Below are positions 29,814-32,352 of a stretch of DNA of 35,168 nucleotides, piece after piece. The stretch is taken from positions 1-35,168 of IMG/VR virus record IMGVR_UViG_3300032132_000024; one strand, given 5' to 3'. Source of the stretch: a virus. The position numbers were made by a program, and so were the translations under genes. The notes below the pieces were generated by a model. It saw nothing but the letters and a program-made list of their open reading frames with translations, did not search any database and was not told the origin of the DNA. Position 1 is the stretch's first letter, and the number at the start of each line of letters is the position of its first letter.

Positions 29814-31013
29814 GTGGCGGCATTCTACAACGAGCACGACAAGGGGGCAGCGCAATGGCTAAGGGAACTCATAAAAGACGGATTAATAGCGGACGGGGTA
29901 GTCGATGAGCGGGACATCCGAGACATCGCCCCGGCCGACCTCGACGGATTTACGCAATGTCACTTTTTCGCAGGCATTGGCGGATGGCCTCTCGGCCTCA
30001 GAATGGCTAATTGGCCCGACGACCGACCCGTCTGGACAGGCTCGTGTCCATGTCAGCCATTTAGTGTCGCCGGAAAGGGTGGAGGGGTTGACGATGAGAG
30101 ACACCTGTGGCCCGCTTTTCGGTGGCTCATCGCCCAGCGCAGACCTGCAAGCGTCTTTGGCGAACAGGTTGCAAGCCGCGACGGGCGTGAATGGGTCGCC
30201 GGAGTACACGCTGACTTGGAAGCAATGGGATATGTTTGCGGGGTTGCAGATATGTGCGCTGCGGGCTTCGGCGCGGCCCACATCCGACAGCGATTGTGGT
30301 GGGTGGCCTACGGTGACGGCTCTGGTGGGGTACGGAACGGACGACAGTCCGACGAACCAGAGGAACAGTCCATCGACCAGCACCCTAGTAAAGGGGTGGA
30401 CTTCGCCAATAGCGCGGGACCACAAGGGCCACACGAAGACGGAGGCGCACCCAGAGGGATTCACTCAGACTCTGGCAAACGACGTGGAGCAAGCGGGGTG
30501 GCCGACGCCGATGAGCAGCGATCAGAACGACAGGCAAAAGTCGGAAAATTGGCAAGGGGGCGATCTTCCATCAATGTCGAAGTTGACTGGAGCCGCGCAG
30601 TCTGGTGGCCCTGTCGAGACGGGAAAGCAAGGCGAGTTCCTGCCAGATGGGTGGAGGACGCCGACCGAGGCCGAGACTCACAATCAGGATTACTCCACGC
30701 AGATATACCTCCAGAATCAAGCACAGACGGCGGGGTGGGTAAGCCCGACATCGCAGGATCACTCGAGGGGCAGCAAGCCGCCACGCCCACAGGACAGAGG
30801 GGTACCACTAAGCCAGCAGGCGACAATACAAAACCTCCGCCTGCCCGACATGGAAGGCTGGAAGTTGAACCCGCGCTTTTCCCTCTGGCTGATGGGATAC
30901 CCGGACGAGTGGGCCTGCTGCGGGGAGCGGGCAATGCAATCGTACCGCAAGTCGCGAAAGCGTTCATCGAAGCAGCAGAAGGCGCAAGAGAAGAAATAGG
31001 AGGTAAAAAATGA
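29814..31013 (+). CDS. DNA cytosine-C5 methyltransferase
   Basis: The protein has 399 residues from GTG 29814. Motifs of the family occur in order: motif I F-F-A-G-I-G-G-W (51-58), motif IV G-S-C-P-C-Q-P-F-S (catalytic Cys80), motif VI F-G-E-Q-V with Glu117, motif VIII I-R-Q-R-L-W (157-162) and motif X R-G-A-G-N-A-I-V-P-Q-V near the end. The middle is a low-complexity target-recognition region with repeated V-A-D-A-D-like units. It adds methyl to C5 of cytosine, probably protecting phage DNA from host restriction. No matching nuclease is nearby. A second long frame is open through it (next entry). Confidence 0.93.
   Translation: MAAFYNEHDKGAAQWLRELIKDGLIADGVVDERDIRDIAPADLDGFTQCHFFAGIGGWPLGLRMANWPDDRPVWTGSCPCQPFSVAGKGGGVDDERHLWPAFRWLIAQRRPASVFGEQVASRDGREWVAGVHADLEAMGYVCGVADMCAAGFGAAHIRQRLWWVAYGDGSGGVRNGRQSDEPEEQSIDQHPSKGVDFANSAGPQGPHEDGGAPRGIHSDSGKRRGASGVADADEQRSERQAKVGKLARGRSSINVEVDWSRAVWWPCRDGKARRVPARWVEDADRGRDSQSGLLHADIPPESSTDGGVGKPDIAGSLEGQQAATPTGQRGTTKPAGDNTKPPPARHGRLEVEPALFPLADGIPGRVGLLRGAGNAIVPQVAKAFIEAAEGAREEIGGKK
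30094..30999 (+). CDS. Nested ORF in another frame of the methyltransferase (WPTP-repeat protein)
   Basis: A frame with no stop from 29905 to 30999 lies wholly inside the methyltransferase gene, offset by +1. ATG 30094 has GGAGGGG 6 nt upstream, giving 301 residues. The product has repeated G-W-[PTRV]-[TSV]-P blocks (five, 30-40 residues apart), an N-terminal T-L-T-W-K-Q-W-D-M, A-L-R-A-S-A-R-P-T-S and a C-terminal L-N-P-R-F-S-L-W-L-M-G-Y-P-D-E-W. I recall phage proteins with the same W-P-T-P and L-N-P-x-[FW]-x-x-W-L-M-G-[FY]-P pattern. But the methyltransferase repeats V-A-D-A in the same DNA, so the repeat may be a shadow. Either an overprinted gene or a conserved open shadow. Confidence 0.5.
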   Translation: MRDTCGPLFGGSSPSADLQASLANRLQAATGVNGSPEYTLTWKQWDMFAGLQICALRASARPTSDSDCGGWPTVTALVGYGTDDSPTNQRNSPSTSTLVKGWTSPIARDHKGHTKTEAHPEGFTQTLANDVEQAGWPTPMSSDQNDRQKSENWQGGDLPSMSKLTGAAQSGGPVETGKQGEFLPDGWRTPTEAETHNQDYSTQIYLQNQAQTAGWVSPTSQDHSRGSKPPRPQDRGVPLSQQATIQNLRLPDMEGWKLNPRFSLWLMGYPDEWACCGERAMQSYRKSRKRSSKQQKAQEKK

Positions 31014-31698: not shown

Positions 31699-31936
31699 CC
31701 CACACACAGACGAGCCAGACGTTCTCGATTGCCCCAAATGCAAGCAGCCCGGCGAGAGCATGGGGAGCGCGTTTGAGCCGGACACGCAGACTTACACATG
31801 CGCGGCCCGGTGTTTGCGGTGCGAGATCATATGGACGGACACGCACGACGACGACGGCCACGTGGAGACATCGTGGAAACCGGACAGAGACATAACACAC
31901 AACTCCCGTTTGGAGTTTGGAGGAGGTTGGGAGTAA
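31691..31936 (+). CDS. Small zinc-finger-like protein
   Basis: The protein has 81 residues. C-P-K-C (about 14-17) and C-L-R-C (about 41-44) with acidic segments between suggest a zinc ribbon. It overlaps the previous gene by 8 nt and the next by 1 nt (TAATG). The C-terminus is acidic. Function unknown. Confidence 0.6.
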   Translation: MDNPHTDEPDVLDCPKCKQPGESMGSAFEPDTQTYTCAARCLRCEIIWTDTHDDDGHVETSWKPDRDITHNSRLEFGGGWE

Positions 31937-32352
31937 TGCTCGACGGCTCTCCATTCGCACCGATACCGGGGTTCCGGCGTCCCGACCTGTTCGCGGAGGG
32001 GTGCGACGATTTCGTTACAGACGACTCCGTGGCGTTCCTCGATAAGTACCCCGTGTCACCGGGACATCTGCTGGTTGTGCCGCGCCGGGTTGTTGCGTCC
32101 GTGTATGATCTGCCAGCGTGCGAGTATAATGACCTGTGGAGGCTCGTCAGGCGGTGTAGGACGGCGTTTAACGAGGGAAGGCTAGGCCTAGTACCTGACG
32201 GGTACAACATCGGCTTAAACGACGGCACAGCGGCGGGACAGACAATCGACCACGCGCATATTCACATCATCCCGCGATACAGGGGCGACGTGGAGGACGC
32301 ACGCGGCGGTATCCGATGGGTGAAGCCGGGCAAGGCTAATTACTGGGGGTGA
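31936..32352 (+). CDS. HIT-family hydrolase
   Basis: The protein has 138 residues; AGGAGG lies 9 nt before ATG 31936. The histidine-triad signature H-A-H-I-H-I-I-P (106-113), preceded by N-I-G-L-N-D-G-T-A-A-G-Q-T, is the active site of nucleotidyl hydrolases that cleave phosphoramidate or AMP/dinucleotide bonds. F-L-D-K-Y-P-V-S-P-G-H-L-L-V-V-P at about 34-49 matches the family's N-terminal half. In a phage it may act in nucleotide metabolism or on modified DNA; the substrate is unknown. Confidence 0.9.
   Translation: MLDGSPFAPIPGFRRPDLFAEGCDDFVTDDSVAFLDKYPVSPGHLLVVPRRVVASVYDLPACEYNDLWRLVRRCRTAFNEGRLGLVPDGYNIGLNDGTAAGQTIDHAHIHIIPRYRGDVEDARGGIRWVKPGKANYWG

Follow-up and report, generated by a model that had tools for sequence, protein, structure and literature searches.

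Organization of the locus

The window, that is the whole stretch of DNA analysed (35,168 bases), is the same as the virus record and carries genes for head, tail, terminase and replication. Two genes on one strand share the DNA under study (Table 1). The longer one, which we call alpha, encodes a C5-cytosine methyltransferase that is recognized by PF00145 (E 4.2e-13; 49.9 bits, exceeding the curated cut-off of 22) and by phrog_363 (E 5.6e-72). Nested within it, in the +1 frame that is open from 29902, lies beta, whose stop codon is at 30997-30999. Beta matches phrog_1008 (E 8.2e-24) over most of its length, its product gave no match to Pfam, and its profile gave 0 matches to the sequences of solved structures. 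Both phrog_1008 and phrog_363 are labelled DNA methyltransferase; they represent two frames of the same DNA, an overlap that the label of phrog_1008 hides.

Table 1. Features of the overlapping gene pair, with positions in the window.
Feature	Position	Strand	Evidence
Alpha, C5-cytosine methyltransferase, frame 0, 399 aa, GTG start	29814..31013	+	PF00145, phrog_363, regional constraint
Beta, nested +1 gene, 364 aa from ATG 29905, stop included	29905..30999	+	phrog_1008, conserved overlap, substitution classes, stop depletion
Probable beta start, frame-0 codon 31	29905..29907	+	ATG enrichment; family-wide ATG and Shine-Dalgarno signal
Alpha motif IV, PCQPFS	30048..30065	+	Frame-0 translation; alignment with fused methyltransferases
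GGAGGGG and ATG 30094, possible additional internal start, not conserved	30081..30096	+	Sequence; comparison with relatives
Beta residues 77-123, predicted helix and beta-hairpin, overlapping alpha motifs VI-VIII	30133..30273	+	pLDDT; both frames constrained
Beta module array, five GW-x-TP type modules, only +1 constrained	30304..30840	+	Module split; NS 0.204 versus SN 0.024
Beta motif IX, LNPRFSLWLMGYPDEW	30865..30912	+	hhalign to fused methyltransferases; pLDDT ~83
Alpha motif X, GNAIVPQ, frame 0	30930..30950	+	Frame-0 translation

Alpha is made up of motifs I-VIII and X, with a middle linker that is near-neutral yet open. Of the motif X residues, G373 is kept in 74 and N374 in 75 of 76 loci. 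The first motifs, in codons 1-84 (29814-30065), look permuted: YNEHD, which resembles motif II, comes at the start, and FAGIGG, which resembles motif I, only at codons 53-58, directly 5' of motif IV, while fused relatives have motif I first. The motif names I to X follow the C5-methyltransferase literature. Elsewhere in the window, the ORF at 31798-32352 contains the stretch HAHIHIIPRYRGD, which resembles a HIT-type hydrolase motif; in PHROGs this ORF matches families of unknown function only.

The nested frame is open beyond chance

A preliminary description of this DNA had drawn attention to the 364-codon open frame (301 aa from ATG 30094) inside the 399-aa methyltransferase, which agrees with the ORF list, and had weighed a very long overprinted gene against a conserved shadow. 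Shuffles, constraint and conservation, described here and below, decide for the gene. In the shuffles, the frame-0 protein was kept fixed and its synonymous codons were permuted 500 times. The window has 365 open +1 codons, a length attained in none of the 500 shuffles (mean 130). Across 76 distinct loci, the longest +1 run averaged 321 codons versus 173 after shuffling, and in 20 of them the observed length was never matched by any shuffle; the +2 frame, taken as a comparison, gave 72 codons versus 84 in the same 76 loci. Among 213 loci aligned across the N-terminal part, +1 stops were absent from codons 76-165 (0 versus ~283 in synonymous shuffles) and scarce in codons 46-75 (3 versus ~50), and in codons 1-30 they were, if anything, commoner than expected. 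The open +1 frame is a real gene.

The reciprocal count concerns frame 0 in the module region of beta. Shuffling synonymous +1 codons there predicted 672 frame-0 stops in 191 loci, and 1 was observed; four loci with frame-0 stops (L009, L149, L152 and L204) were excluded from this count. Because frame-0 stops are almost absent from the modules, alpha must be read through them to motif X; its amino acids hardly matter in this region, yet the frame is kept open. In each of the four excluded loci (of 247 collected), a single frame-0 stop (L009:1795, L152:1575, L149:2172, L204:2492) breaks alpha and leaves the nested +1 gene intact; these may be pseudogenes, sequencing errors or further split enzymes.

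The overlapped pair is conserved

A +1 match overlapping the methyltransferase in the same relative frame was found in 247 of 247 loci. Of these, 80 viral loci were collected via the methyltransferase protein, 1 via the window's +1 protein, 80 viral and 80 bacterial ones via the +1 alignment, and 5 were annotated phage loci, the window making up the rest; some are copies or overlap one another, and the number of distinct overlaps is 216. The check set out in advance, a search for stops or missing constraint in relatives, was thus carried out: every locus keeps the +1 gene, and purifying selection on its amino acids is strong. Another 28 loci, drawn from the phylum of G001 (where 14 of 299 genomes matched) and from a phrog_27243 search, all have the same overlapped arrangement as judged by offsets from the printed coordinates, and some of them overlap one another. 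Neither the 247 nor the 28 loci held a +1 gene without an overlapping methyltransferase. We considered phrog_27243 as a standalone relative of beta; its single match among 3 genomes (L339) was the overlapped pair again. In a distant Firmicutes-type set, 57 of 60 loci have the +1 arrangement and 3 have both parts in one frame.

Both frames are sometimes annotated already, as in PhiXhv-18, K1ind2 and Gryphonian, the annotation of the last remarking that no program called it. More diverged methyltransferases with the same nested +1 ORF occur in the phylum of L191 (L348, L351, L352, L353, L359, L361 and L364); the nested ORF there has WPTP modules and ends of the LNPLFVEALMGWP type. Gene 58 of phage N15, searched in E. 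coli genomes, gave no near match. Our literature search, which had most subscription journals outside its range, turned up no publication about gene nesting in this family of methyltransferases; the accessible portions of PMC5723332, PMC3439449, PMC6456624 and PMC4574080 contain nothing on the nesting, and that of PMC5582158 has a one-line mention of 'Mte8-like'.

Each frame is selected chiefly in its own part

We classed single substitutions by their effect in frame 0 and then in +1 (N, nonsynonymous; S, synonymous), using up to 60 independent pairs from the 216 distinct overlaps. The counts cover isolated differences within ungapped in-frame blocks only, with transitions weighted 2, and the resulting rates are not full dN/dS estimates. 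At codons 1-30 only frame 0 is constrained (NS 0.013, SN 0.305), and at codons 46-105 it is mainly frame 0 (NS 0.0145, SN 0.265), the +1 amino acids being hardly constrained. Both frames are constrained at codons 106-165 (NN 0.010, NS 0.067, SN 0.130, SS 0.31) and again in the last 60 codons (NN 0.012, NS 0.058, SN 0.112, SS 0.279). The module region gave NN 0.015, NS 0.204, SN 0.024 and SS 0.26, and its NS/SN of 8.6 (bootstrap 6.0-12.2) means that +1 is the constrained frame there and frame 0 is nearly neutral. The GW-x-x-P repeat had been suspected of being an echo of VADA units in the methyltransferase; in the module region the reverse holds, the +1 frame being constrained and VADA the echo. 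The window and its nearest relatives, compared pairwise, have too few module differences for the +1 pattern to appear, and the pattern rests on the family.

The Firmicutes-type set (18 pairs) repeats the pattern independently, with NS 0.016 and SN 0.261 before the overlap and NS 0.191 and SN 0.035 in the modules; its last 60 codons (NS 0.066, SN 0.260) look more like frame 0 alone. Frame-0 synonymous variation amounts to 0.93-0.95 of expectation at codons 1-45 and to 0.40-0.45 at codons 106-150, and many frame-0 synonymous sites are invariant (e.g. V119 is GTT in 76 of 76 loci). Constraint from RNA structure or a DNA signal was considered as a cause and is disfavoured because the constraint tracks the +1 codon positions (NS 0.204 versus SN 0.024 in the modules). 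Flanking ORFs, taken as a neutral control (150 pairs, 139 usable), gave NN/NS 0.51 and NS/SN 0.44, a control that is impure because mechanical ORFs from either strand were taken; the fused homologues described below are the better one. Both frames are selected, each chiefly in its own part.

The start of beta

Beta probably begins at ATG 29905. A +1 ATG stands at codon 31 in 96 loci (shuffle mean 59, maximum 72), at codon 37 in 106 (mean 46, maximum 59) and at codon 41 in 61 (mean 39, maximum 48). An ATG at codons 27-44, combined with a Shine-Dalgarno sequence and a +1 frame open to codon 165, occurs in 128 of 213 loci, where shuffles gave a mean of 4.3 and a maximum of 9. ATG 29905 is common to the window, L006 and L086, and in the window it is without a canonical Shine-Dalgarno sequence. 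Synonymous substitution is reduced at codons 34-49, and a sharp fall follows at codons 82-97.

The preliminary description had placed the start at ATG 30094, and the GGAGGGG that it named upstream is indeed present (30081-30087). This start was tested first and was downgraded after the stop-depletion and ATG-enrichment results. It is missing from the relatives L006, L086, L088 and L090, the family signal lies at codons 27-44, and the +1 frame upstream of 30094 is still homologous and stop-depleted; ATG 30094 is probably not the conserved start. A start codon of any kind is found at codons 91-94 in 146 of 213 loci (shuffle mean 113, maximum 133), ATG itself showing no enrichment (78 versus 84), and ATG 30094 is possible as an extra internal start.

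Modules and motif IX of beta

The AlphaFold2 model of beta is poor overall (pLDDT 53.9, pTM 0.24) and has two confident pieces, the helix-hairpin at residues 77-123 (pLDDT ~73-82 in blocks 81-120) and the motif IX helices, with no fold predicted for the modules. A fold search with this model gave no match at E <= 0.001. Both the G-W-x-x-P blocks and the LNPRFSLWLMGYP end reported earlier for the +1 product are present. In the window, modules start at W134, W165, W199, W250 and W278; across loci their number varies from 0 to 6, with a median length of 35 residues. In 19 pairs with flanks alignable over 90% at an identity above 85%, the module region aligned on average over 67% (range 28%-99%). 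Between the window and L006, codons 1-165 and the last codons differ little, and only 83 bases of the module region aligned. Such variability between near-identical flanks is how recognition regions behave, and on this sequence pattern we regard the modules as putative target-recognition units. The tandem modules stand between motifs VIII and IX, as in multispecific phage C5-methyltransferases.

By hhalign, beta residues 313-341, which hold LNPRFSLWLMGYPDEW, align with residues 318-346 of actinophage methyltransferases (probability 97.3, E 2.3e-11). The LNPxFxxWLMGYP end, which had been likened to other phage proteins, is thus methyltransferase motif IX. Profile comparison of alpha with the actinophage methyltransferases aligned motifs I-VIII only and found no motif IX in the alpha chain; that of beta with alpha gave no alignment.

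Fused single-chain relatives

Actinophage relatives carry the modules and motif IX within one methyltransferase chain. In 22 of 23 loci motifs IX and X lie in the same ORF, which in 14 of 15 examined also holds motifs IV and VIII. The model of one fused enzyme resembles M.HhaI (Z 21.6, 3.7 A over 241 residues), its modules being unfolded too; residues 273-308 of M.HhaI fall under motifs IX and X of the fused enzyme, an assignment for which the sequence alignment alone is too weak. Two relatives of the Firmicutes-type set, L300 and L308, combine WPTP modules, LNPDWVECLMGFP or LSPDWVECLMNYP, and motif X within a single chain. Judged by their sequences, the fused enzymes are the parts of the split enzyme in one piece.

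All 14 anchored fused loci have +1 stops between motifs IV and IX. In 7 independent pairs, the rates were NS 0.076 and SN 0.116 for the modules and NS 0 and SN 0.265 for the end with motifs IX and X; +1 constraint on the modules and motif IX is therefore seen only where the +1 frame encodes them. The control picture is not clean, the IV-VIII region having an intermediate SN rate of 0.13.

Short +1 ORFs in three fused loci (L323:1271-1672, L318:1292-1657 and L316:1292-1657) still match the N-terminal profile of beta (E 2.5e-14 for L323). The helix-hairpin domain might serve a separate purpose, or the fusion might have happened not long ago; these ORFs are accounted for by neither a plain split nor a plain shadow. 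In Mycobacterium phage Jarcob, the methyltransferase consists of two consecutive genes in different frames, 69 and 70 (L249:1836-3006), the second of which holds the modules, motif IX and motif X; this is possibly a recent frame change.

A probable methyltransferase of two polypeptides

The same DNA codes twice at this locus, constraint is divided between the frames, motif IX is present in beta and absent from alpha, and fused homologues contain the same parts. The locus very probably encodes a C5-cytosine DNA methyltransferase of two polypeptides, a catalytic alpha and a nested target-recognition beta. Frame 0 would yield alpha, in which motifs I-VIII, for cofactor binding and catalysis, are joined by an unconstrained linker to motif X, and the +1 frame would yield beta, with the small helix-hairpin domain, the GW-x-TP module array and motif IX. 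The array would occupy the position of the variable target-recognition region of methyltransferases. We infer that both products are translated and assemble into one enzyme, in which beta would contribute motif IX and the variable modules that complete the small domain. Alpha would bind the cofactor and catalyse, beta would pick the DNA target, and cytosines would be methylated in sites set by the modules. Swapping modules in beta would then change the sites that the phage marks, and the phage DNA would be protected, presumably against host restriction.

An independent role for the +1 protein outside the methyltransferase (e.g. anti-restriction or regulatory) would suit the N-terminal helix-hairpin domain, which lacks a counterpart among solved sequences, and the short +1 ORFs of fused loci that still match the beta profile. 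We consider it unlikely, since beta carries the motif IX that alpha lacks, since the part with modules and motif IX is found inside single-chain methyltransferases, and since no copy without an overlapping methyltransferase occurs in the 247 and 28 loci. Less probable still is a ribosomal shift from frame 0 to +1 whose product would be a single chain running from the alpha motifs to the modules and motif IX. A chain that joins motifs IV-VIII to modules and motif IX does occur in the fused actinophage enzymes, and the drop in synonymous substitution at codons 82-97 is sharp, but the ATG with Shine-Dalgarno sequence at codons 27-44 and the rarity of +1 stops from codon 46 on both precede the frame-0 motifs IV-VIII, and a single shift would lose motif X, which lies in frame 0. 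That the +1 frame is an untranslated shadow, held open by composition and the frame-0 protein, is scarcely credible: +1 runs are indeed lengthened by GC-richness and by the conservation of frame-0 motifs (even after shuffling the mean is 173 codons) and the +1 amino acids are hardly constrained over codons 46-105, but the lack of stops, the constraint on synonymous sites, the +1 periodicity of substitutions in the modules, the start signal and the loss of the pattern in fused homologues all contradict it.

To our knowledge, DNA phages have rarely provided documented cases of overlapping genes on one strand that exceed 300 codons and for which selection has been shown in both frames. The load is shared here, frame 0 being constrained at the ends, +1 in the middle and both only over short motif stretches. 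If the two-polypeptide reading is true, many entries annotated as a single orphan methyltransferase are incomplete enzymes, alpha cloned by itself would seem inactive, and specificity would be deduced from a near-neutral part of its sequence. How two frames can be optimised at once also becomes testable, with the fused single-frame homologues as natural controls. A wider proposal, on which we are evenly divided, is that the C5-methyltransferases of phages and bacteria include a very widespread class of overprinted two-subunit enzymes, most of whose second subunits are unannotated. The nested frame would be an exchangeable specificity cassette shuffled by phages, and dual coding an evolvable device by which specificity can change without touching catalysis. 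By the same proposal, and with no greater certainty, the catalytic frame would tolerate any module swap because the modules, read in that frame, form no more than an open linker.

Comparison with known systems

In M.EcoHK31I, the smaller subunit is reportedly encoded in another frame within the larger gene. The distribution of motifs I-X in split C5-methyltransferases is treated in PMC3404938, according to the accessible part of which M.EcoHK31I (Lee, Kam and Shaw 1995, as cited there) is a natural two-polypeptide C5-methyltransferase for YGGCCR, with motifs I-VIII and X in the larger subunit and motif IX in the smaller. Alpha (motifs I-VIII and X) and beta (motif IX) divide the motifs in the same way, and the second polypeptide is likewise encoded at the same locus, here from the coding evidence for the nested frame. 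The systems differ in that the target-recognition region of M.EcoHK31I is predicted in its larger subunit (same portion of PMC3404938), whereas here the variable region is near-neutral in alpha, is selected only in beta and forms a modular array. Alpha and beta may thus be a variant that works like M.EcoHK31I, likened to it by the described motif distribution and not by sequence.

M.AquI, the split C5-methyltransferase for CYCGRG covered in the same part of PMC3404938, also makes one enzyme of two polypeptides, the smaller of which has the variable region and motif IX. Unlike here, where motif X is in alpha, its motif X is in the smaller subunit, and the genes here overlap across nearly all of beta. 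The multispecific phage methyltransferases SPR, phi3T and rho11, with tandem target-recognition domains as the accessible part of PMC8936443 describes them, likewise have exchangeable modules lined up from motif VIII to motif IX; they are single chains with known targets, whereas here the array lies in a nested frame and recognition is putative. The ShiLan domain, a hidden out-of-frame HNH endonuclease in a phage methylase (PMC11855218, accessible part), resembles beta in being a protein out of frame inside a phage methylase gene. ShiLan, however, is a homing insertion, whereas beta carries a methyltransferase motif and is present throughout the family.
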